Assembly (NCBI GenBank): GCA_034387635.1
Contig: JAOANU010000009.1
Location: forward strand, 857,198-921,197
DNA length: 64,000 bases
Source of the DNA: Rhodosporidiobolus odoratus
Taxonomy: Eukaryota; Basidiomycota; Microbotryomycetes; Sporidiobolales; Sporidiobolaceae
Direction: 5' to 3'
The stretch's first letter is position 1. Each line of letters opens with the position of its first letter. The notes under the pieces are model-generated. The model worked only from the letters and a program-made list of their open reading frames with translations, did no database searches and was not told the DNA's origin. Shown piece by piece: positions 28,292 through 64,000 of the stretch. Position numbers and translations under genes: made by a program.

Positions 28292-31200
28292 ATGCTTGCC
28301 GCCGGACTTCGCAAGCGGCGAACTAGTTTTCTTTCTTTCCTCGTACGGTCGTTCCGCTCTGTTTCATCCGCCACCGCCATGACAGAACCGGCACCCCCAC
28401 CATATCCCGCTCCACGACCAGCAACGCCCGGCGTCGGTCCTTCACCCGAAATTACTCGACTGGCGGCACTTCGAAGGTCGCGAGCGGGCAGATTCACAGC
28501 GGGAGCTTGGCGATGGAAGGGCTTGATCGCGGCAGGAGTTGCTGGAGCTTACGTATGGACAGTGTGAGTCCCTCGAGCTGGACGAACGCGAGGTGGAGCT
28601 GGAATGGGCTAACCACATCGGAATCGGCGGTGGTGGTCGAGCAGCTGGGAGGGGGAGAAACGCAAGGCGTTCAAGCGGGATACGATTCACGACAATGTGA
28701 GTGGCCGCCGGCGTCCTTTCCGCTTGGCGTCGGCTTCGAGGAGAAAGACGTCTTTCCTCCTTTCCGCAACTCATACATTTCTTTCTGGCGGTTGTCCTGT
28801 CCCTTCCTTTGCAGACTTACCTCTACTGGAAGATCTATGACGGGTAAGATGACGAGAGGCGTCGCATTCGAACAGGGACAGGCTGATGGGGAACTTCCTT
28901 CGCCTTCGCAGCGGGATCGTTGAGGCAATATCGGCTGGATCAAGGTGCATTCTGCTCCAGCTTCCCACTCTCTGCATTCTATCTGAACTACCTCCAGATG
29001 TCCATGCTGACGGTTCCTACCTGCCCCTTTCCTGCCATTGCATATCGTTCCCTGTCGCTTTGATCATGTCATCGTTCTTTTCCCTTTCTCCATCGACAGC
29101 TTGAACTACCTTCTGAGCTCATCGCAGGGCGGATCACCTGAAGAGCCGCCACGAGTCATGACGGTGCGTACCCTTGCCACACCCCCGGCCGATTGCCAGC
29201 TAATCTGCTCGAGTATCGCAGCTCTTCGACGTTGTTCGGACACTAAAGTTCATTGAGGCGGATGACCGTATCGTGCGTGTTCCATACACCTCACTTGTCT
29301 GAGCCAGGTCTGATATGGCCTGCGTTACAGCGTGGCATCGTTGCCGACTTCTCCTCAACCTCGGTACCTTCCGTCCCATCTTACAACTTGGGCCTAGCAC
29401 AAGTGGAAGAAATCCAAGACGCCCTCCTCGAGCTCCGAAGAGTCAAGCAGGAAAAGTTTGGAACTGAAGAGCCGGATGGATGGAGAACGGTTGCGTGGAC
29501 GGATAGCTTTTACAGTCAGGGACAATATTTACTCGCAAGCGGTGCGTTTTCCTCCTTCTACCCAATCTGGAAGCTCAGACTCTCATCGTCAACGCCAAAC
29601 AGCCTTCGACGAGATCTACTGCCAACCGACTGGCGAGGTTCCGCTCGTTGGCATGGGTGAGTTTGACCCTCTCCAAACACCTATTTCTACTCTCGGATTT
29701 CTCTCTGAATCATGTTGCCATGCTGACTCTTCGAGCTTGCCACGATAGGTTCGACAACACCCTTTTTCGGTCGTCTCGCCAAGTGGCTAGGTATCGAAGT
29801 ACATGCCGAGGCTCGCAATGAGTACAAGGCATTTGTGCAACCCGTGCGTAGCTCTTCCTCTTCTTTCCCTATGTTCTAACGCTGCGACTTGGTCACGCTC
29901 ATGACTTCTCCTCTGCACAGTACATCGACGAACAACTCACCCCACCCCAGCGAGAAAATCACCTTCAACTCCTAGCCGACCTGAACGATAACTTGATGAC
30001 TTACATTGGCCGCAACCGTTTCTCCTCCCCCACCAAAAGTGGTCGAGAATCCCTAGAACATGTCAAGAGCCTCTCCAAGGTCGGCCCATTCACGGCGGCT
30101 CGAGCTTTAGAGGTGGGGTTGATCGATGGGGTTTGTTATCGTCAGGATGTGCTGGATTCGGTGATGAATGAGGAGCAGGAACATGTCCGTGCTTTACCCC
30201 TCAGCGGGGTAGGGAGTGTGTTGAAGCCGGTGTTGGATATAGCGGGTGCAGAGGCGGCTGCCCCGAGCTCTCCAACGCTGGAGTTGGAGAAGGAGAAGAA
30301 GTGGGCGGAAGAGGGAAAGAAGGAAAGGAACCTCATGGGCTTCTATCACTTCCATAAGGTGGTCGAACGGGCAGCGGAGAAGTTCTTGAAGGACACTATC
30401 GAGGTTGGAGTGGTTTATTTGCTAGGAGGTATTGGAGACCCCGGAGAGTACGCCTTTCCCCCTTTCTCTTCCTTCGCTGTCTCCCCTGCTCACGCTGCTC
30501 TCGGCATTCTCCTGCTCTCCCACAGGTTCGGTACCGCATCCGTAGTACGAGGCCTAAAGGAAGCAGGCGAGGACGAAACCATCGGCGCCGTCGTTCTCCG
30601 CATTGACTCTGGGGGCGGAGCTGTAGTAGCCAGCGATACCATCTGGGCGGCGGTGCGAGATTTGAGGAATAAGGGCAAGACGGTCGTGGCGAGCTTTGGG
30701 AACTCGTGCGCGAGTGGGGGGTACTGGGTTAGCACGCATGCTGATGCGATTTTGGCTGCTCGTGCGTTTCTTTGTCGTGCTTTGTGATTCTGGAAATGCT
30801 GACTTTCGCTGACGCTCTCGTTCCTCCTCTAGCTTCGACTGTCACCGGCAGGTAAGGCTGCCGTCTCGTCAGGTATCGATCGCCGTAACTGCACTGACAC
30901 CCCTCCTCTTGTCGCTCCGTAGCATCGGCGTCGCAGCTCTGCGACCAACCTTCCTCCAGCGCTTCTTCGACCGCTTCCACATCACTCTTGAAAACCTATC
31001 CGTCGGCTCCCGAGCCATGGACGTCACTCACTCTCTGACCCCGGAAGAAATCGAGCGACACAAGCAAGGCGTCGACGCCATGTACGCCGATTTCAAGCGA
31101 CGAGTTTGCGAAGGAAGGGGAATTGGTGAGCAGGTTATTGAGGGGATTGCGGGCGGGAGGGTCATGACGGGCTTGCGAGCGTTCGAGCTCAATGCACCGA

Positions 31201-35215: not shown

Positions 35216-36120
35216 GGGTGGGGCGGCGGTGGTGTGTAGCTGGGGGTTTGAGGCGCGCGTCGTCGCGTGGTGGGGCTCGGTGTGATGCGGTCGGAGCGGT
35301 TTTTGTCGGAAGATGGACATTGGTTAGGCGTGGCGTCGAGCGGGCCAAGGAGCGGGTTACTTCCCTTGACCTCACGCCATCTCTTCTTTTCGCATTTCCT
35401 CCTCCTCCCTACTCTATTATTCCAGCAGCTTTCCTCGTTACCTCGTACTTTCGGCCAGCCAGTCAGCCGGCCCGTTGGACACGCTCGACTCGCCGATCTA
35501 CATTGATACCTCAGTCTCGCTGTTCGCACCCGCACACCTCTTTTCCACCTCATTGTTTCCCCTCGCAATCCCGCATACATTCCTCTTTCCCGGCTCATCG
35601 GTGTTGTCGTTCTCTCGAGTTCCCTTTTATCCATCCCTCCCTCCCTCCCGCCCTCCCTGAGCCTCTTTGGTTTCGTTTTCGCTTTCGCTGTGTAGAGCTG
35701 TGCTTTATTCCCCCGTTTTGAATGCTACTCTGCGTTCACTTTCTTTGTTGCTTGCTTGCGTTACGAGCTCAGAGGAAGGACTGTCCAGTCCAGTAAGAGC
35801 AGCATTTCATGCATTTTGGGGCCCGTCTCGCCCGGGCCTGACACAGCCAAAACAGAACCAACTACAACAACCTGCATCCACGCTGCACCTCCTCTCCATG
35901 CCGGCTGTTCCTGCCCTTTGGCAAGCGCCGACGTCCCCAACGCAAACATCAGGGCGAAGATTCGGTGTTGACCAGCGCTGGTCGTCGGATCGAGTTTACC
36001 ATGGAGGATATTGGAGAAAGCGAGAGAAAGGAGACAAGGGAAGGGGGACGTTGAGAAGGTGAAACACTGGAGCAGAGCTGCGGCAGAAGCATCAAAGTCA
36101 GTTTGTGGGAGACCGAGAGA
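35216..36120. other. 0.9-kb region without a supported gene
   Basis: It contains the 3' region of the preceding plus-strand gene and the 3' region of a small minus-strand gene. There is a strong pyrimidine block at about 35380-35660 (including CCCTCCCTCCCTCCCGCCCT) that resembles a leader, but no ATG-initiated ORF follows it convincingly. Confidence 0.4.
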
Positions 36121-36402
36121 CTAGGGCAGAACAGCGTACGAGGCAAAGGTGAGCCACTCCGGATCCTTCTGCGGGGAGCATGTGGAGGCGGATGGAGGGC
36201 TTGACTGCAGGCAGCAAAGCAGATCAGCCAAGCAGTCACATGCAGGGTAGAGTACGAGTAACGCACTTTGAGCCTGAGCGTTCCTTCTCCATCTCCCTGC
36301 CTGCCATCCTCCCAACCCTTCGCGACATCTGTCAGATCAAGACGATCAGCCTACACGAGGTGAGGGAGAAAAGAAGGAAAGAGCACGCACGTTCGTCCCC
36401 AT
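36121..36402 (-). CDS. very small hypothetical protein
   Basis: Three exons joined by consensus splice sites give about 59 residues: MGTN, then ADRLDLTDVAKGWEDGRQGD and LRLK, then ...QKDPEWLTFASYAVLP and stop. Donors are GTGCGT at both introns and the acceptors are GTGTAG and CTGCAG. No hydrophobic segment and no family recognised. The clean splicing is the only support. Confidence 0.35.
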
Positions 36403-36957
36403 AAAGAATGAAGGTGATTAGGGTGGCAGACTACGGTTCAAGCGAAGTACTCAGTTGGTGAATGTAGGAAGAAAAGCGGAAGAGAAAGAGAAAATCAGCT
36501 TTTCATGTGCGTGAACTTGCTTGGCAGTGCTGCGCACAGGCACGCTCTGTCAGCTGCGCGTATATCCGCTGCGGGTCGCGCGTAAATCCGAGGGCGACTG
36601 CAATGCACCTCCTATCCCCTTCTCCCATCATCAACCCAGTCCATTCCGTAACTTGTCCAGCTTCCCTCGCGCAACCTCACTTCAGTACCCATTGACCTCT
36701 ACCACGACCCGAGAAGGTCCCACCAACGTGTGTGATCCCTCCTCCTACTTCCCCTCCCCCGCCGAGCCTGATCTCCCGCGTACTTTCCCTTCCTTACCAT
36801 TTTGATTGCTCCTCCACTGCAGACCACACAGCCCAAATCCTCAGCTCGACCATACTCCAGTTCCCTCTCAGGTCTGTCGTCCCTCCGTTCCACCCTTACC
36901 TCTCTCTCTCATTCCCCATTTCTCACTCTCTTGCCTCACCTTTTCACTCCAAGCGAC

Positions 36958-37446
36958 ATGTCTCAGCCCACAACTCCATCCCTCGCTCAGCGCATTCCTT
37001 CAACGGCTGTAGAGCCCTCAGCCATGCAGCCTGCAACGCCTCAGCATAGGCCACACTCCCCCTCGCCTTCTGTTTCTCCTACTCCTCCCGCTATTCCCCT
37101 TCACCAGGACCCGCTGTTCACGCCCATTCCCATGAACAAGCAGCAGCTTATTGCGTCCCTTAGTGACCTCCTTACGCACAACAACCCCCAGACCAGCCGC
37201 GTCCTGGGTGCGGTTCAACGCCTTGTGCAACAGCATGAACACCTGTCGCGCCAAGTCTCGGGTCTCAACGCCGATCTCACAGAGCAGGCAGAGCAGATTG
37301 AAAGTATTGAAGAACTCTTTGAGTCGGAGATCGATGAGATAGACAGGGAGAGTTTGCCCGAGGACATGCACGAAGCCTTTTCCACATTCCTTCGCTTGCG
37401 CCCGCAGATCGAGGCGTTCGTACGTGAGCACGAAGCTCGCGATTGA
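36958..37446 (+). CDS. small coiled-coil protein, unidentified
   Basis: A single-exon ORF of 162 residues beginning MSQPTTPSLAQRIPST. The first 55 residues are Pro/Ser-rich; the rest is helical with heptad character: KQQLIASLSDLLTHNNPQT, VQRLVQQHEHLSRQVSGLNA, EQIESIEELFESEIDEIDRE and a last helix LRPQIEAFVREHEARD. A strongly pyrimidine-rich leader precedes the ATG, like other expressed genes here. No known domain recognised; size and architecture would suit a complex subunit. Confidence 0.55.
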   Translation: MSQPTTPSLAQRIPSTAVEPSAMQPATPQHRPHSPSPSVSPTPPAIPLHQDPLFTPIPMNKQQLIASLSDLLTHNNPQTSRVLGAVQRLVQQHEHLSRQVSGLNADLTEQAEQIESIEELFESEIDEIDRESLPEDMHEAFSTFLRLRPQIEAFVREHEARD

Positions 37447-37792
37447 CTTCCTCCTTCCTGCATTCCCTCCCTTTCAGCCGCCTCCGATCCTTGACAATTT
37501 TCTTCTCCTTGACTCATACCCTCAACCTTATACCTTTACTTCAACACCACGGGCTTTGTGTATGTGCACAGGGGGAATGGTGTACAGCTCAGTCGAAGGG
37601 TTCGGGAATGACAGGCAGTGTAGCAACTAGCATACGATGTGCAATCTCTCCTCTGCTTCTCCTCATATGGACCTGAGACCTCATTACACAAAGGAGTATG
37701 TAAGAAAAGCAAGAAAGCAAAAGCAGCGAGAGAGACGACACTAGAGAAAGGCAAGGATATGAACAAAATGAGGGGTATGAAGAGGGATACAA

Positions 37793-40700
37793 CTAAGGTG
37801 GCTTGGGCTTCTTCCCCTCCCGTCCCACGGGGTACCCCATTTCCGCCATCTCGGCAAAGCGCTGTCGAAGAAGGTGGTAGTCGAGTCCCAGGTGGATGTA
37901 GGTCCAGAAGACTGCCGTGATGTTCTTCGCACCAACAACATCCCGATCTTCAACCTCGCCGCAGCCTGGGCAACACTTCAAGCGCAGGTTTTCATCCTTG
38001 CCGAGGAAGAGCGAGCTAAGGCTGCAGTCATCCACGACCAAAAAGCTCAACTTGCTACCCTCGACCATGACGAGACGAGAGAGAGTAGTACGTACACATC
38101 GTCTCCATGCTCCTCGCGGCAATGAATGTCCGTACACATACTGCTTGTCCTGAACTCGTCCACAAACACGATCTCGACCTCGTTGATGTCGCTTCGAGCT
38201 CCTGCGGCCTTCTTGATCGCATTGACGAAGACACACTGCTTCGACCGAGCGTACCCTCGAGCATCCGAGCCACCGTCTTGACCAAACACGAAGATGAGAT
38301 CGTGCGATTTCGGTGAAGGCGGATAGATTCGGTTCAAGAATTCGGCGGCAGTCATGTCGAGCTTGCTTTGGTAAACCTGCTTCGTTTCGAAGTCGAATCG
38401 ATCCTCTGCAAGAAACTGTGTGAGCTAAACACTCTGAGTCGAGGTGATTGAGGCACTCACCTTCGTAACCTCGTATTGCTGGCCCTGACCCTTTCTCCTC
38501 CGGCATCCCAAACTTGGCTACCCTCTTACTCACCCTCTTCGACGCCGTATCGAGGGTTGCGCTCTTCACCAGGGCACAACGACCAGGCTCCTCTCCCACC
38601 ATGGGCTCGTAGTAACCCACCAGAGCCCGACGGAAGCCGCCATCTCCCCCCAAAACCGCCGCTGACTCCTCGCTAAGAGCTCCCTTCCCATCCTTTATGT
38701 CGATGCGGCCGTCTGGAATCGAGGGGAGAACCGAAGAGCGAGGGATTTCGCGAGGATGAAGAGTACGAGTGTCGGAGCCGTCTGGGATCAAGGCGTAGGT
38801 CGGATTGGCGGCGAGATGCTCGAACAGTTTTGGTGCTCGATCAATGGCGAGACTGAGGAATTCGTGAACGGTGTCTACCTTGTCGGCGGGAGAGCGGATT
38901 GTGTTGACGGTCGATTGCAGTGGGTGTTTCGTGTCGAGCACGAGGTAGTTCACTCTGAATGCATCGAGAGAGAAGGAGCCGTAGAGGAGGTTGGTCTTGT
39001 GGGCACCGGGGAGCAACCACTTCATGAGCAGGAGACGTTCCTGTCGAACCTTTGTTCCGAGGGTAGATCGCGGCGCTTCGTCGCCCAGTCCTACCAACTG
39101 CCGCACCTCTATCATGGCTTGATCAAACGCGGTTGCCAAGGCTTCTGGGGGTTTCGACCGGCGAAGGAGGATGTACGGATCCGGTTGACCTGGCGGTGGA
39201 TGTAGGAGGATTTCAGGAACAGAGGCAGGGAGGAGTGGCAGGGGAGCATGAGGTGTGTCGAGGTCTGCAAGGTAAGCGCGTATGGCGTTGATGATTGCAC
39301 CGGCGTTATCGGACCGACGAAGCGTATCGAGAACTTCGACGCTTTCAGGCTGGAAGTGATCGTGCGACGGGTTGTAGCGCTGTCGAGCTTGATTGCCCGT
39401 CAGCCCTCAGCCGGCACTTGCAAGATCGGAAGGGATACAGACTCACAATCGGCTGAACCCAGGGCAAATTTCCCCTTAACCAAGCAACATCGCTCTCGCT
39501 TACCTCGAACCCATCTCCCACCCTCTCATTCTCCGACTCCAGTCTGAACACGCGCTCCACATACCGCATCGTTGTCTGTACTGTACCCGCCCGCAAACGC
39601 CCCTTGCTCTTCCCTTCCACAATCGACCGCAACGAGTTCCCCTCCAGCTCAGCATCCTGGAGTGCCGTCTCCACCTCTTTCGTTCGCCAATCTGCGTTCC
39701 ATTCCCCCAACCCAACCCAGGTCTGCATACCCGCCCCAGCGTCAATCTGCTCTGCTTCGTCTGCTGCCGCTTCCAGATCCACTTCCTCCGCCTCCTTCCC
39801 TCTCCCCTTTCCCTTCCCCTTCCCCACTGTTACCTTCCTCGCCTTCTCATTCTCGAACGACCATTCCACCTGTCGACCATCCTCAATCCCAAACTCTGCC
39901 ATCACGCATACCCACACCCGATGACGAGGGTCGACTCGCTGAGAACCGGTGTTCCTGCCGGCCAGGCGTTCGAGGTGGTTGCTGTCGTAGTCGTTTGCGA
40001 CCTGTCAAGCGAGAGCGAGCTGGAGCAGACATGGAATCACACTGCTCAGCAAGGTGGCGATCTGTTCAGTGGCGGCGAGGTGTAGGTTGCTGGTCGTGGG
40101 CAGAACTGCCGCTATTCCTGCCTGCAAGTCAGTGTCGAGTCTCTGACGGTAGGGCGCAGGGACCGAGGTTGAGTTGAGAAGGCTCCAGGCGAAATCGGCA
40201 AAGTGCTTGACCGCCGGGTTCAGCCCGCGCTCGCTGCGGCTTAGTGCACGGTTCAGCACCGAGATCGCCTCGAGCGCGGCCGGCTCCAGAACAAAGGGCG
40301 GGGCAGGAAGGAGAGGCGAAGGAGTTTGATCGGTGCCGAGATCTTGCGAGCTACTACGGTGAAGCGTGGGAAAGATAGTGTCGTTCAGTCGTGCGACCGT
40401 TGCGGCGGGGGTGAGGAGGAGAGACCAGATGAGATTGTGCAGCGCTTGCTTGGTCGACTGTAGCTCGCTGACTTCCCAGTTGATCGTGATCTGCTGTATG
40501 AGCGGGTTGAGGTGGTGGCGCAATGGAGCACTCGCCGAGAGTGCTGCCATGGCTGCGGAGTAGATAGGGTGCGACGTATGACGTTCGATGGCGTCGATGA
40601 GCTGGATTGGGAGCTGCAATACCCAAGTCGTTGTCAGCTTCCTACTCTAATCTTGAGGAGGCGCAGGGAACGGCGACTGACTCCACGCTGCGTCAAGCCT

Positions 40701-41188
40701 TGAACATAGCTTGCCGGCTCTCGCTGACAGCCCTCCTGCATAATCGCCTCCACCTCCTGCCACTCCTCTGTCCCGGCCGCCACCCCTAACGACGCCCGCA
40801 ACACCTCTGCCATACTTTCACCTCGTAGCCGACCACTCGATTTCGTCGTCATGACGTTACAAACACGCTTGAGAAAGTCGTGTGCTTGACCATCGCCCAT
40901 CAGGAGAAGATGGGAGTGCAGCGGGTTGACTTGGCGAAGGACCGAGATGGTGATGCTGATGATCCCATGAAGGAGAGGCGCGGCGAGCGGGGTCGTGAAT
41001 GCGTGGAGGAGGGCGAGGTAGGGTGCGACAGCCGGATGGACAACGTGGTTGATGCTGCCGGTCAAGGTCTTGCAGTCCAACGTCTTCATCAAGCGTTTCG
41101 GATCCTTCAACGCGGCCACCATCTCCACAGTACCCTTGCCGGCCTCCTGCTCTCCTTTGGGCACACCCGCTGCGAGCTTCTGCGCCAT
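37793..41188 (-). CDS. TnpB/Fanzor-like protein with RuvC and zinc-ribbon motifs
   Basis: The C-terminus shows the arrangement of OrfB/TnpB and its eukaryotic relatives, Fanzor. VDEFRTSSMCTDIHC (about 38135-38163) gives the RuvC-II acidic residue and the first ribbon half (TSxxCxxxxC here). CCPGCGEVEDRDVVGAKNI (about 37919-37978) gives the second CxxC and the RuvC-III DRDxxxAxNI. Fanzors are RNA-guided DNA nucleases carried by many eukaryotic transposons. Upstream is a long, mostly helical region. The first ATG is at 41188 (MAQKLAAGVPKGEQEAG), but coding-like sequence in the same orientation continues up to the TGA at 41654, then into the XPG-like gene, so the two may be one reading frame split by decay. 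The RuvC-I aspartate is not certain (DTKHP in VNYLVLDTKHP is one candidate). About five introns. No terminal repeats or guide RNA could be assigned. Confidence 0.5.
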
Positions 41189-41653
41189 TCTCGTCTGTTT
41201 GCGAGCGGCGTTGGGAGCGCGGGCCGGTCGCTTCTTCTTCTTCTGCTGCTCCTTGTCCTCTCCTTCCCCCTCCTCTCCCTGATGTCCTGCACCTCGGTCT
41301 TTGCTCCCGGAACCCCCGGGGGGCTGCTTCTGGTTGTTGAGGCCGTCCTTCGCGGCAAGGACCGAGCAGAGGAGGCTGTCGAGGTCTCGTAGCGGTGTCG
41401 ACTGAGCGTAACTGAGGCGAACGTTGTCGGCGGGGGGAGGTCTAGGTTGACGGTGCCGGCGAGAGGTATATGCGACGCTGGGGCGGCCCGGGTTTGGAAT
41501 GACAGGGCTTGCAGTCGGGGGAGGACGGGTACCAGGAAAATCAGGGCGTGGAGGTCGAGTGTGCCGCCTTCCCCCGGATGCGACCAGGTTCTGGCGGGCA
41601 GGTCGAGCCCGACCGCCTTCAAGCGTGAGGTTACGGGTGATGACCGGCTGAGT

Positions 41654-43388
41654 TCAAGTGGACGGGCCGGGACCCGGGGAGTTGGTCGTTGAGCCGGTAT
41701 TGCTCTTGACGACCGCCCAAGTCCTCACACTGCGCAGCTGCTTGAACACCTCACTCGCCAACTCATGCTTGCTGACCAACTCCTCCTTCCGTACCTCCCC
41801 GCCGGTAAAGGTCCTCAACCAAGCTCGAACTCGACCACGTCGCCCCGCAGCTGCAGTTGCCGTCCTCGAGAAGATCCCCCGCTCAACGCCTGACGCCACT
41901 CTTCCCAGACCTGCTCTGCGGCCTACGGATCCCGACCGTACACCTCGAGCCAGTCGTACTTGGCCAGTCCCGTAACTGCCTCGATAGCCTGCAATGCATG
42001 CGCCGTTCCAAATCCCACCAAGAACCCCCCCTGCCTGTAATCCTGCCCCGCGAGGAGAGCGATGACCGCGCCGGCTCTTGGTTGATCGAGGACCCCGAGC
42101 TCGGTCGCGAGCTTTGATCGGGAGAAGAGGCTGACCAGCTTCTTGTCCTGTCTCAACATGCCGGTCGTCGTCTGTGTGAAGTGTAGACCGTTGAAGATGT
42201 TGTCGCTGTCACCGCCGATGACTGCGATGTCCTCTTGATAGGCTGAGGCGCGCTCGAGACTCGCTTTCAAGTCGGCGAAGGGAGTGACGAGTGGAAGTTG
42301 TGTAGGGAGAGAGGCGGGAGTGGTGAGTGGAGGGGGACGACCTTGGACGAGAGCGGTGACAAGCTCGGCGGTAGCGGGATCGCCTTCATGGGTGGGCGTC
42401 GAGAACGTGCACATGCCATCGAGGGCGTGGAAGAGCTGTGGAAGATGGTGTCACAGAATGCTGATGAGAGAACATTGAGATGGGGCACACCTCCTTCTTG
42501 GAGCAGTCCTGCAGATCTTGCAGACCTGGCGCCGGCATGTAAAGGGAGGAATAGGCGGGAAGGGATTTGAGCGCTTGATGACCGTTGCCGCTGTGAAAGA
42601 GCAAGTCTCTCTCGTACTTCCCCAGCCGAGCATCTCCACTGCCCTTTCCTCTGACCTCCCGTACCCCTGCATCGAACAACGCAAACGCCTTGCCCATCAC
42701 TCCCGTTATCCTGCCTTTCTCGCATGCCTCCTTTGCCCGACTGCGTTCTTCCGCATCCGGCAGGATGATCAAGAGGCCCGTCGGCCAGACTGACCGGATT
42801 GCGACGACAAGGTCGTAGATCACCTCGAGCACTGCACAGGCGACGGTGTCGGGGTAGGAGTCGGAGCGCCAAAAGGGGTCATCTTTGCGGAGGTGGCCAG
42901 CACTGGTGTGGAAGGCGGAACCAGTCGAGCTGCCCATATCGACCAACACGACTGAAGCAATGCATAGTTGAGTATAGCGTGTACCCAAGCGAACTGAGGG
43001 ATGCGCTTACCATCTTTTGCACCGTTGTAAGGCCGGAAGCCTCACCCACAGTGACAGGGGGACGGAAGAAGTGAAGTTGGATGAAGGGAGCTTGGCACGG
43101 GCGAAGGCACTTGGTCCTTTCCTTACGCATTCGCTAACGGATCGAACCAGGTAGCTAGACTTCTTTGTAGCTCTTGCCTTACGCATTCGCTAACGGATCG
43201 AACCAGCAATACACCGCGGTTCTCCTTAGCTTTCGCCCAGTGTTGGCGGAGAGATTCGCCTTCCAACCGTCCTCCTCCAGAATCGCCCTCATCAACCTTG
43301 AGCCTTGACTACAATCCCGGTCATTGATCTGGAAGGAGAGCACCGCCTGGGCTTGGTGTGCGAGGTCGGCAAAGTCGGCAATGCCCAT
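41654..43388 (-). pseudogene. XPG/FEN1-like nuclease, disrupted
   Basis: The start MGIADFADL at 43388 resembles the MGI start of XPG/FEN nucleases. Conserved pieces follow: VVLVDMGSSTGS (N-domain aspartate), LLIILPDAEERSRAKE (the VFDG position), THEGDPATAELVTALVQ (I-domain acidic helix), IAVIGGDSDNIFNG (the DxD element) and VIALLAGQDYRQGGFLVGFG with HALQAIEAV (the LLxGxDY..GIGPxxA helix-hairpin-helix). Disruptions: an in-frame TAG at 41925-41923 inside ...EVYGRDP/AAEQVWEEWRQAL, a change of frame about 60 bp later, and a TGA at 41656-41654 after which the same frame stays coding-like. I infer a decayed or recently disabled copy. It lies immediately upstream of, and in the same orientation as, the TnpB/Fanzor-like gene. 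Confidence 0.5.
43121..43206. repeat. 30-bp direct repeat, two copies 26 bp apart
   Basis: The blocks 43121-43150 and 43177-43206 are identical (both begin CCTTACGCATTCGC and end GATCGAACCAG). They fall at the first intron of the XPG-like gene and duplicate a potential donor/acceptor GTTAG. Confidence 0.9.
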
Positions 43389-43696
43389 GATGAGCAGGAG
43401 TAGGGAGGAGGCGGTTCGGATTACAGGGGGAAAGAAGGAGGGAGAGAGATGGTGAGGAAGGAATGGCTTTGGCTGGTGATGGCAAGGCTTATAGGTAGAG
43501 TTGTGTGGTAACAGTCTGTGAGATAGCAACAGGGGAAACAAGCGGTATCATTTGAGGAAGAGAGGGATTATCAACTCGACTTCTCACTGTCACCTCTTGT
43601 TTGTCGCAAGACTATAGTATGACTATGGGAGGTGTGTCTCACTGGACTCGCCTGTACTACGGACGAGTAGAAGATTGAGCTGCAGCACTGAGCAGA

Positions 43697-44979
43697 CTAC
43701 GGCCACAAGTTCCCCCCAAAGTTGATCAACCCAACCTCCCCGTCTCCGAGCCAATCCTCGATCTCAATCCCTTTCCACTCTGCCCGAATGATCTTGCAGA
43801 GCATATTCTCGAGCAGGATCGGACACGAGAGGTCGATGTTGAGAGAGAGCCGCGTATCGTTCCCCTGCAAGCTGACAACGAACCGAGTCGCGTCACCACC
43901 ACCTCAACGCCCTCTCAGAAACTCCCAACGCGCTTCAATACTGGCGCGGGTCTCGGGATCGAGTGGGCCGTTGTCGCGTCGCAGGATGCCAAACGGTCTG
44001 ACGGAAGTCGCACCCGGCGCACGAGGACAGGGCAAGGGAGCCGGGATCAAGTCAGAGGAAACAGTATAGGGAGGACGTACCGCGCGTATACCGTTGGAGA
44101 TTCCCCCCTCTGCCTCACTCGCATTCATGGCGTCGAAGAACTGTTGGAAGGCCTCCTCAGTGGCAGCATCGACCTCCTTCCTCGTGCTGCTCGCCGATAC
44201 GCTCAGGAAACCGAGTCGAACTAGACCCTTGCGAGCACCTCGGCTGACATCGGCGACGATGCGGGCCATTTCATCTCGAGTCGGACGTTGGGCATAGCCA
44301 CTCAAGGCGAGGTCACCTGCATGAGCCACACAGAGCTGAGTCAGCAAAGAATGAAGACTGGGGAGCAAGGCGCTCGTGGCAGAGGCTGGGAAAGAAATGG
44401 TGGATGAGGCAAAGTTACATACCCGCTAGCAGCATCAAAGACACACTGTTCTTGGCGGCACAACCAGGGAGCTTGGCTTCCATGAGGAGGTCCCTGATCT
44501 CCGGAAAGGTCGGAAGGACACCGGTCGGGATGGACGTGATGAACTTGTCGAGTGTTCGGTCCAGCGCAGACTGACTCTTCTTCCAATGCAGATGGTGAGC
44601 CGATTGACCGTAACACGCCGTACTTCCCTAGCGTAGACCCTGGCTAGGCTTGAGGAACCTCGTGGCGAACTGTGTTGGCACTGTCTGGGTCGTCCAGGTC
44701 GGAATGTTGGTGCGGTTGATGCCGATGCTTGGAAAGGCGGCGTAAACGGCTTCTTCAGCGGCTATCAAGCCACCGACTTGAGTTCGACAGTGGTGCTCGA
44801 GCTGTAGGTTGCGGGGTACTGGAGCGCCTTGGGAGTCGAGGAAGGTGGGGAGCAGTCGGCGATGCGGATGACGCTCACGTAGGGGGAGAACCTGCGACAG
44901 AGGCGAGTCAGGAATGGCCAATGCACAGACCTTCCAAAGAGACTGAGCGTGTACGCACCAGGTAAGGCTTATCACGCAT
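43697..44979 (-). pseudogene. unidentified protein gene interrupted by TGA
   Basis: Exons read, in order: MRDKPYL (candidate ATG at 44979), VLPLRERHPHRRLLPTF...FATRFLKPSQ, SALDRTLDKFITSIPTGVLP...KNSVSLMLLA, DLALSGYAQRPTRDEMARIV...AFQQFFDAMNASEAEGG, then RPFGILRRDNGPLDPETRA..EARWEFLRGR. A TGA (43910-43908) follows, but the same frame continues with GGGDATRFVVSLQGNDTRLS...LINFGGNLWP and stops at 43699-43697. The sequence GCGTTGAGG is one transition from GCGTCGAGG, so the stop looks like Arg CGA to TGA. The 3' end lies in the left arm of the 226-bp inverted repeat. Family not recognised. An upstream part near 45000-45130 may add exons. Confidence 0.45.
43849..44074. repeat. inverted repeat, left arm (226 bp)
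   Basis: It matches the reverse complement of 49803-50028 with about six mismatches seen. It contains the last intron and the RPFGILRRD exon of the interrupted gene above, including its TGA. The arms are 5.7 kb apart and enclose the TET/JBP-like gene. Confidence 0.92.
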
Positions 44980-45053
44980 CAACTCGACAACACGCTGCTT
45001 CTTCGAAGTGGCTCGTCTTTGCCTTGTCGTTGTCGCGCTTGACACTTGACCTG

Positions 45054-49367: not shown

Positions 49368-49973
49368 ATGAGCTCACCGGTCCTCATGTCGTGCGACTCA
49401 CCGGTTTCGTCGCCACCCCGTTCTCCTTCGCTTTCTTCCGTCGCCGACCCCCCTTCTTTGGCCGCTTCGAGCGCCGCCGCCCTCGCAGCCCTTGGTCAGC
49501 CCGCCCTCGACGTCCCTCGTCCGACTTCTGCCGACATGCGTCCCTTTGACCCGACCCGAGACGCGTTCTGGCAGGATCACCTTGGGTCGACCGATGTGGA
49601 CCTTCTCAATCGTCGGTCGTGCCCTCCCCCCGCTGCGACTTTCCCCACAGACTCTATCCCTTCCTCTCTCTCGATGCCTTTGAACGACTTTGACAAGGAC
49701 GACATCAGGGACACTTGCCAGCCTGCGGACGGGCGCACCAATCTCGCCGCGAGACCTGCCACTCCGCCTCGGTCTGCTACGACCTCCATTGTCCAGTCGA
49801 CCCCTCCCTATACTGTTTCCTCTGACTTGATCCCGGCTCCCTTGCCCTGTCCTCGTGCGCCGAGTGCGACTTCCGTCAGACCGTTCGGCATCCTGCGGCG
49901 CGACGACGGCCCACTCGATCCCGAGACCCGCACCAGTATGGAAGCGCGTTGGGAGTTTCTGAGAGGGCGTTGA
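49368..49973 (+). CDS. hypothetical protein with 3' end from the inverted repeat
   Basis: The frame opens at MSSPVLMSCDSPVSSPP and runs through a Ser/Pro/Ala-rich head, DMRPFDPTRDAFWQDHLGST and LNDFDKDDIRDTCQPADG. It then enters the right arm of the 226-bp inverted repeat at 49803, using the copy of RPFGILRRDDGPLDPETR..EARWEFLRGR and its TGA. In the other copy the first part of the arm is an intron (GT near 49800, CAG at about 49882), and the same splice is possible here. The protein upstream of the arm has no similarity to the other gene, so this is a chimera created by the duplication. Whether it is expressed is unknown. Confidence 0.4.
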   Translation: MSSPVLMSCDSPVSSPPRSPSLSSVADPPSLAASSAAALAALGQPALDVPRPTSADMRPFDPTRDAFWQDHLGSTDVDLLNRRSCPPPAATFPTDSIPSSLSMPLNDFDKDDIRDTCQPADGRTNLAARPATPPRSATTSIVQSTPPYTVSSDLIPAPLPCPRAPSATSVRPFGILRRDDGPLDPETRTSMEARWEFLRGR

Positions 49974-50028
49974 GGTGGTGGTGACGCGACTCGGTTCGTT
50001 GTCAGCTTGCAGGGGAACGATACGCGGC
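49803..50028. repeat. inverted repeat, right arm (226 bp)
   Basis: It is the inverted partner of 43849-44074. It supplies the C-terminal codons of two converging genes: the plus-strand chimera ending at 49973 and the last codons and stop (50004-50002) of the minus-strand JmjC gene. Confidence 0.92.
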
Positions 50029-62190: not shown

Positions 62191-63699
62191 ATGGCTCGTA
62201 CGTGCTCCGGAATCTCTCTCGTCTGCGTTCTCGCTGACTCGGTCTCGCGTCTCAGCCCTCGGCCGTTACTACAGTGCGTTCTGGCTCTTCGACTCTGGCT
62301 TCCTCTGTTGTGCTGACGACGGCTCGGTCATGGTGCACAGAAATGCCTGACCACCTTCACTACTTTGCTGACCTCGTCGTTGGCACTGGCAAGTGCAACG
62401 GCAACGAGTTCGACACGGCCATTGGTTACGCGGACGCTGCCAAATTCGTACGTCGGCTTGTGCTCTCGGCCGAATGCAAGCTGACCGTGCAGTTCTTCCG
62501 TGCGTAGAAGCGATCCGTCAAGGTCTATGTCCGCAAGAAGAACGGGAGTTTCGTGTGGATCGACTTGCAGAATTTCGTGCGGTGCGCCGGCCCTCGTCCT
62601 CTCCGTTTCTCGGTCTCTGCGACGGCACCAAGATGTACCAACTTCGATCCCCTGCTGCAGCCTGGTCAAGCCCAACGAGCGCAACTACAGGTATTATTGG
62701 CGCTCCGATCCTCGCCTTCGTGCCGTCGCCCGCGGCGAGGGTCAGGCTAGGCGCTTCAGGGTCTCGCTCGGCACCGTCGCGGATTGGCACAACGACATCT
62801 ATCAGGACGTACGCTCTACCGCTTGTTTTGTCGTCTAGAGTGTCTGCTCCGTCAACCGAGACAGCGCCTTGACAATTTCACGCGCGTTGCAGAATTTTCA
62901 GGCTGAGCCTTGCAACAGCGACGACGAAGCCACTCTCTCCGAAGATGATGAAGACGAAGACCTCGCCTCCGACGCCGACGAGGGGGTCGAATACTTTGCG
63001 TCCGAGGACGAGGATGAAAACACGGCGCCTGTCTTTGACGAAATCTCTGAGGATGACCGCGCCTCTGACAATGACCTCGCCTTGGACGACGACGACGATG
63101 ACGGCGACGGCAAGGACAAGGACGACGACGACAACGAGGAGGATGAACACCTCGCGTCTGAGGACGACGACGAGAACGCGGCGCCCGTCTCCGACGTCGA
63201 TTCCAACCGCTCCTCTCTGACTCCGCGCGCCAATCTCGAGAGTCCCTCGATTGCGTCCTCTCGCACGTCTGTCGACTTGGAGGGGCTGGGTCGTGCCGTC
63301 AAGAGCCATCAAGGTTCGGTCGCATCCGTTCCGCCTGACGTCGAAGACGTTGTGGCGGCTTTGTCAACGACGGTCGTGCAGACCGCCGACAACGAAGGTT
63401 GGCGTGGCGAAGTCAAGGCAGAGGCGGACGACGCGGGGTGGAACGAGGAGGAGGTCGAGGGAGTTCAAGTCAAGGCGGACGAGGACGCAGAGGTCATGTC
63501 CCAGGGCGAGGCGGAAAACGAGATGAGGGTCGACGACGGCGTTGGCAATGGTGGGATCGAGAGGAACGACGGTGAGGACGTCAAGCCCAAGGTGGAGGTG
63601 CAAGACGACGGGGAGGGCGGGATCGATGTCGAGATGGAAGTGGTGGCTGCTGAAGACGGAAACGCAGACGTCAAGCCAAAGGTGGAGTCGGGTGAGTGA
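62191..63699 (+). CDS. acidic protein with conserved-looking N-terminal domain, unidentified
   Basis: Exon 1 is ATGGCTC before a GTACGT donor. The spliced N-terminus reads MAPLGRYYKMPDHLHYFADL, VVGTGKCNGNEFDTAIGYAD, KRSVKVYVRKKNGSFVWIDL and VKPNERNYRYYWRSDPRLRA, ending VADWHNDIYQD: a compact mixed alpha/beta domain of about 130 residues. The rest (from about 62890) is extremely acidic with tracts such as DDDDDDGDGKDKDDDDNEED and two KPKVE repeats, like histone chaperones or chromatin proteins. The listed stop is TGA 63697-63699, but GTGAGT just before it could be a donor leading to an acceptor CCACAG at about 63978, so the gene may run off the window. The copia element sits in its 5' flank. 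No family recognised. Confidence 0.5.
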
Positions 63700-64000
63700 A
63701 GGGACGGTGGAGCGACACCTGCAAAGGAGGAAGCGCTTGTTGGGGAAGGCAGGGCAAGGCAACGACCGCTTGGAGGAAAGGGCAGAGGTCAAACCGTACT
63801 GGCAGGAATTAACGCTTTCTCCTCCCTCGGCAGCGTCCTTGCGAGGCTTGCCTCTCACGCCTCGTTGTTCTTCCCCTCGTAACTGCTCTCGATTGGCGCG
63901 CTGACGTTGGCGAGCCTCGAAGAGGGCTGGCCTTCTCACTGACCATTAACTCTCCATCCCCGTCGACTTGCGCCACAGGTTGTGATTTCGACGTGTATCG

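Follow-up and report, generated by a model that had tools for sequence, protein, structure and literature searches.

In a 64,000-nucleotide window at the end of contig C9 of Rhodosporidiobolus odoratus (JAOANU010000009.1; G000:C9:857198-921197), we found what is probably a decayed gene that fuses an XPG-like nuclease to a Fanzor1-like nuclease and that most likely comes from a family of mobile elements. The gene of which the window holds a decayed copy would have spanned roughly 1,650 codons, laid out as a divergent nuclease of the XPG/FEN1 superfamily (N-terminal ~355 amino acids [aa]), a long and partly basic middle, and a Fanzor1-like RuvC/zinc-ribbon nuclease (C-terminal ~500 aa). All comparisons were made within this one genome (24.8 Mb, 45 contigs), from which every homolog used here comes, and copies are named after their contigs: C9 for the window copy, and C5, C3, C16 (two loci), C6, C7 and C4 for the others.

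An initial annotation, made from the window sequence alone, had proposed that both halves derive from one polypeptide, and the sister copies support this. A DNA search of the genome recovered nearly the whole block on C5, with 93% identity in its largest piece. There, a stop-free frame of 606 codons (620612-618795) takes in an XPG_I-like part, then GGDSDN and LLAGQDYRQGG, and passes on into the Fanzor N-terminal half. Spliced from its MGISDF start, C5 yields 1,173 aa in four exons (0 stops), a reading that again links the XPG-like start with the N-terminal half of the Fanzor. The third copy, on C3, is more diverged, at 26-41% identity according to the part compared, yet has the halves in the same order; its XPG motifs and Fanzor N-terminal half share one frame except for a single TGA at the junction, and C3 and C5 are joined over that junction by one local alignment (25.8% over 561 aa; E=1.7e-29, with one stop read as X). 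Because C5 reads uninterrupted across the junction and C3 keeps the order, these sequences support assignment of the XPG-like and Fanzor halves to one gene and one polypeptide. The initial annotation had named homologs that always occur as two unrelated genes as evidence to the contrary; C5 and C3, both from the same genome, do not have that arrangement.

We then compared substitution in the two halves. Between C9 and C5, point estimates of the ratio of nonsynonymous to synonymous substitution (dN/dS) for five segments were 0.29 for the XPG part (323 codons), 0.39 for the Fanzor N-terminal half (713 codons), 0.31 and 0.45 for RuvC (223 and 102 codons) and 0.24 for the ribbon (76 codons), with stop codons, exon 1, the frameshifted linker and a 193-bp piece beside the C5 insert excluded. 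At the level of codon substitution, these values show past purifying selection on the amino acids of both halves, and similar dN/dS in both halves is expected of one protein.

The initial annotation had also identified the C-terminal half as TnpB/Fanzor and had proposed profile searches of the spliced protein, which for this half succeeded. PF07282 (TnpB/Cas12f-type zinc ribbon) scored 34.5 bits on the spliced window copy (E=2.3e-8), above its cut-off of 26.3; the unspliced copy gave 24.1 and 20.7 bits, below that cut-off. In the Fanzor alignment A2, PF07282 matched at E<=10 in three of the four rows, the fourth being a 65-aa fragment without the ribbon. The RuvC-I D-x-G, the shifted RuvC-II Glu (E-x6-C, six residues ahead of the zinc ribbon) and the RuvC-III RD are all present in the full-coverage rows (3/3; C9, C16a and C3), with D-to-E gaps of 143, 152 and 142, respectively. 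In PMC10711439, a D-x-G (x being any residue but P), a gap of 120-160 and the layout serve to select enzymes whose RuvC-II glutamate is rearranged, and the D-x-G, D-to-E gap, E-x6-C and RD found here agree with the Fanzor-type pattern given there. Together, the PF07282 match and the spacing of the catalytic motifs support a Fanzor-type C-terminal half, and the D-x-G and the length point to Fanzor1 rather than Fanzor2. Loss of the RuvC-I Asp in C9 and C16 was considered and rejected, as the alignment places D-x-G at an invariant column. Against PDB profiles, the best match of A2 was LaTranC (E=0.045), over the ribbon only.

The window gene was modeled with seven exons on the minus strand (43388-43011, 42951-42491, 42435-40682, 40613-39447, 39379-38461, 38405-38096 and 38021-37793), with splice sites set by consensus and those of exons 1-4 also present in the C5 copy. 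The zinc ribbon is divided by an intron (38095-38022), and exon 5 is 75 bp shorter than in C5, at 38704/38705. An intron at 40040-40002 that would bypass the TGA at 40005 was dropped, since the same stretch is open throughout in C5. The motifs quoted in the initial annotation were all recovered on the minus strand: MGIADFADL at 43388, GGDSDN and LLAGQDYRQGGFLVGFG in the frame 41923-42450, and VDEFRTSSMC and CCPGCGEVEDRDVVGAKNI at 37.9-38.2 kb.

Table 1. Features of the fused gene and of the duplicated unit that carries it, in window coordinates.
Feature	Position	Strand	Basis
Duplicated unit with the fused gene; copy at C5:608560-622828, pieces 88-96% identical apart from inserts	35802..45016	.	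C9/C5 comparison
11-bp motif GCATTTCATGC (GCAT-TTC-ATGC), left edge of the duplicated unit	35802..35812	+	Also near other Fanzor loci
Exon 1, first part, XPG_N-like start, MGIADFADLAHQAQAV...	43266..43388	-	C5 counterpart MGISDFADLAHQ... continues by splicing
Solo long terminal repeat, TG...CA, 240 bp, within exon 1	43026..43265	-	Genome matches, 5-bp repeats, missing from C5 at this place
Exon 1, remainder beyond the long terminal repeat, up to donor GTAAGC	43011..43025	-	Sequence
Exon 2, VLVDMGSS... (first acidic motif) to ...ILPDAEERSRAKEA...	42491..42951	-	Splicing compared with C5
Exon 3, XPG_I/H3TH-like part: HEGDPATAEL, DIAVIGGDSDNIFNGL, LLAGQDYRQGGFLVGFGTAHAL	41926..42435	-	Motifs, profile comparison
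In-frame TAG, open at the same place in C5	41923..41925	-	Comparison with C5
Linker with frameshift at about 41820 and TGA 41654-41656; open in C5	41654..41922	-	Comparison with C5
Remainder of exon 3, with a basic linker and the Fanzor N-terminal half	40682..41653	-	C5 comparison
Exon 4, middle of the Fanzor N-terminal half; in-frame TGA 40005-40007	39447..40613	-	C5 comparison
Exon 5, RuvC-I region, conserved D-x-G (VLGGDGGFRR)	38461..39379	-	Alignment of Fanzor loci
Exon 6, ...IVFVDEFRTSSMCTDIHC, with the shifted RuvC-II Glu and the first zinc-ribbon half	38096..38405	-	Pfam, alignment
Exon 7, KCCPGCGEVEDRDVVGAKNI, second ribbon half and RuvC-III Asp, then stop	37793..38021	-	Pfam, alignment

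The window copy is a pseudogene that can no longer make the protein. Five lesions were found: the long terminal repeat (LTR) in exon 1, the TAG at 41923, the frameshift at ~41820, and TGAs at 41654 and 40005. The TGA at 41654 is present as initially annotated, with the frame open on both sides. The initial annotation further had the XPG frame running on into the Fanzor frame; the shared orientation holds, but these are distinct frames (41923-42450 and one into 41654), separated by the TAG at 41923-41925 and the frameshift. The solo LTR is flanked by 5-bp direct repeats (ACGGT at 43266-43270 and 43021-43025). This stretch takes 40 of the 45 matches listed in the genome DNA search and, because seven pairs of matches lie 4.9-5.1 kb apart, we read it as a member of a low-copy LTR retrotransposon family. 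C5 is damaged further on, by two TGAs in the RuvC exon and a ~5 kb insert between LTR-like repeats, and C3 carries the junction TGA, a ~5.7 kb insert in its XPG part between ~240 bp repeats, and a likely frameshift before RuvC-I. Between window 38705-43020 and C5:616862-621185, 106 of 209 transitions fall at CpG, as against 726 of 2,580 C/G sites; this enrichment is suggestive, and compatible with decay of repeats resembling repeat-induced point mutation or driven by methylation.

We regard the fused gene as most likely part of a mobile-element family of this genome. The 11-bp motif at the left edge of the duplicated block, GCATTTCATGC, has 32 sites in the genome (6 for a reversed control) and lies 0.4-8.6 kb from every Fanzor locus found (8/8, a count that includes two duplicate pairs, C9/C5 and the two C16 loci; gene limits are approximate and hand-entered). 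That eight Fanzor loci lie near one 11-bp motif points to mobile elements. Sorted by their starting sequence, the 26 of 32 sites inspected comprise 10 with TAGGAGTCTACACG, 6 with TAAACA..CGGGTC (C16-type Fanzor), 5 with ATGATTCGGGATCGG (one of which is C3), 2 with ATTTTGGGGCCC (C9/C5) and 3 singletons, one of them probably unrelated. The repeat-family ends opposite the motif look ragged, with one end in common and no target duplication found by eye, and the motif may serve as the recombination end for a group of elements not yet described. An ordinary segmental duplication carrying a host gene, rather than a transposable element, is the less likely account of the block, albeit one with evidence to its credit: there are only two close copies, neither terminal inverted repeats nor target-site duplications were seen by eye at the 35802/45016 ends, and the motif stands 3' of the gene in C9/C5 and 5' of it in C16, C6, C7, C4 and C3. 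Against such a duplication, the left edge of the block is the motif itself, which lies close to each of the eight Fanzor loci found and also opens several further families of repeats.

Two further observations concern repeats. The TAGGAGTCTACACG family contains a 382-codon open frame lying ~0.7 kb in from the motif (L073:751-1896), and the TAGGAGTC-family frame compared with the Fanzor loci gave a best E of 0.73. A 226-bp repeat at window 43849-44073, which the C5 block lacks, recurs on the opposite strand at about 49803-50028 (97% identical) and also on C18 at 92%.

The XPG-like half is divergent, and its identity, proposed in the initial annotation, is weaker than that of the Fanzor half; it is suggested by motif order and by profile-profile comparison. 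The order of XPG motifs is kept (an MGI start, VDM, FDSD...RSRAKE [C3], APHEAEP [C3], GGDSDN and L-x-G-QDY...FG-x-AHAL), and motifs found in both C9/C5 and C3 are conserved between them despite ~30% identity. By eye on alignments A1 (the XPG part) and A4, six of the seven catalytic acids of XPG, whose positions we take to be those of FEN1, are plausible and in order. PF00867 had seven matches elsewhere in the genome, none of them at the fused loci; two of these are pieces of one gene and L045 was omitted, giving a comparison set (A3) of five genes. When the XPG part was aligned by hhalign with these five same-genome relatives, L-x-G-x-DY...G...A fell in register (P=0.002 at the helix-3-turn-helix [H3TH] motif), and the score beat column shuffles in five of six set-ups (60/60) and 58 of 60 in the sixth.

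Several results weigh against a fused XPG-Fanzor gene. At E<=10, neither Pfam (XPG_N and XPG_I included) nor NCBIfam matched the XPG part, and A1 gave chance matches only against PDB profiles (best E=0.31). In the profile-profile comparison, two of the 60 shuffles scored as high as C3 alone against one XPG set-up, and the probability that hhalign itself assigned was at most 14% (14% in one run, 1-12% in the shuffle set-ups). The second acidic residue is unclear in C9/C5, and plausible in C3 (FDSD). In the Fanzor half, the first ribbon knuckle is C-x4-C (3/3 rows), departing from the strict published pattern of C-x2-C in both knuckles. An XPG part is present at three of the eight Fanzor loci found (C9, C5 and C3), and all three are broken, so that no working fused protein is known. 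At the other five (C16 twice, C6, C7 and C4), no XPG part was detected by a whole-genome protein search and a profile run on the DNA fetched, the XPG profile finding nothing at E<=1 among frames of at least 40 aa from C16-type loci; the C16 locus at 495 kb may be an intact XPG-less Fanzor of roughly 930 aa, with seven exons open (splicing judged by eye). Protein database searches returned no relative of the Fanzor core of the spliced window copy (7,991 candidates scored, 0 at E<=1), of A2 (7,996 scored, 0 relatives) or of the C5 XPG part (3,079 candidates, 0 relatives), which we take to reflect sparse coverage of fungi and not a lack of relatives.

These results bear on two other readings of the gene. 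It is improbable, in our estimation, that the N-terminal half is an unrelated domain with look-alike motifs and the gene a long Fanzor with an N-terminal extension: beyond the missing Pfam, NCBIfam and PDB matches, the EGD/EAE and DSD motifs stand ~38 residues further apart than in XPG proteins (by eye), and AlphaFold2 on the window XPG exon alone (170 aa) was of no help (mean predicted local distance difference test score 35, discarded), but the motifs stand in XPG order, those in both are kept between copies only ~30% identical, and the profile alignment exceeds shuffles in five of six set-ups. We give little credence to two adjoining genes of one mobile element, XPG-like and Fanzor, joined in C5 by a read-through accident: the TAG and TGA between the window halves and a C3 TGA ~16 codons from the place of the window TAG would fit, but the window and C3 stops differ in position, C5 has no stop in the 606 codons across the junction, and C3 stays in frame past its TGA and aligns with C5 through it.

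Around the fused gene, a peptidase family S49 domain (PF01343, E=1.4e-11) at window 29852-30787 marks an ordinary neighbor gene. The window ends with contig C9 itself (921,197), ~21 kb from the fused gene, and no telomere-like repeat is present in its last 401 bases (63600-64000).

Returning to the fused gene as part of a mobile element, an intact Fanzor half, guided by RNA made from the element, would cut a matching site, for example the empty site left by excision. The XPG-like half could trim flaps or junctions at the Fanzor-made break, and host recombination might then copy the element back at the processed break; attack on competing elements would be an alternative role. We put forward as tentative, and as yet doubtful, the broader idea that a lineage of yeast mobile elements carries one protein in which a DNA cutter guided by RNA is joined to a structure-specific 5' nuclease of its own, with cutting coupled to flap or junction processing. 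Were it true, the processing of breaks would be built into an RNA-guided system of eukaryotes. PMC10432273 describes Fanzor's biological roles as still unknown, and a natural fusion to a flap or junction nuclease kept over long divergence would directly hint at cutting coupled to break processing, a coupling thereby made testable. XPG-bearing and XPG-free Fanzor lineages coexist in this one genome near a shared terminal motif.

The initial annotation knew of no described XPG-Fanzor fusion, and we found none in the open-licence PubMed Central (PMC) literature, where no paper holds XPG and Fanzor together as whole words and none holds a set of five XPG and transposon terms all together. Term searches of the available portions of PMC10711439, PMC10432273, PMC3627910 and PMC11423790 likewise returned no mention of a fusion of this kind. 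As far as those portions describe Fanzor1 (PMC3627910, PMC10432273, PMC10711439), the window gene resembles it in the D-x-G of RuvC, the shifted RuvC-II Glu, the RD after the ribbon, the variable N-terminal half and the association with mobile elements. Fanzor1 proteins are given there as 400-700 aa (PMC10432273), whereas the window gene has about 1,650 codons, an XPG-like domain in front and a C-x4-C first knuckle. Closer to hand, the C16-type Fanzors (C16, C6, C7 and C4) lie near the same GCATTTCATGC, and C16 is 50% identical to the window copy in exon 6; they differ in having no XPG part that we could find and an N-terminal half without detectable similarity (E>0.1). With XPG, FEN1 and GEN1 the window gene shares the MGI start, acidic motifs in XPG order and a GxDY...G...A H3TH-like motif, but its XPG-like half is too divergent for Pfam, has ~38 extra residues and an unclear second acid in C9/C5, and is joined to a Fanzor. 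Academ DNA transposons, in which we know of no Fanzor part, carry an XPG-like nuclease, which would be a precedent for a nuclease of XPG type in a mobile element.

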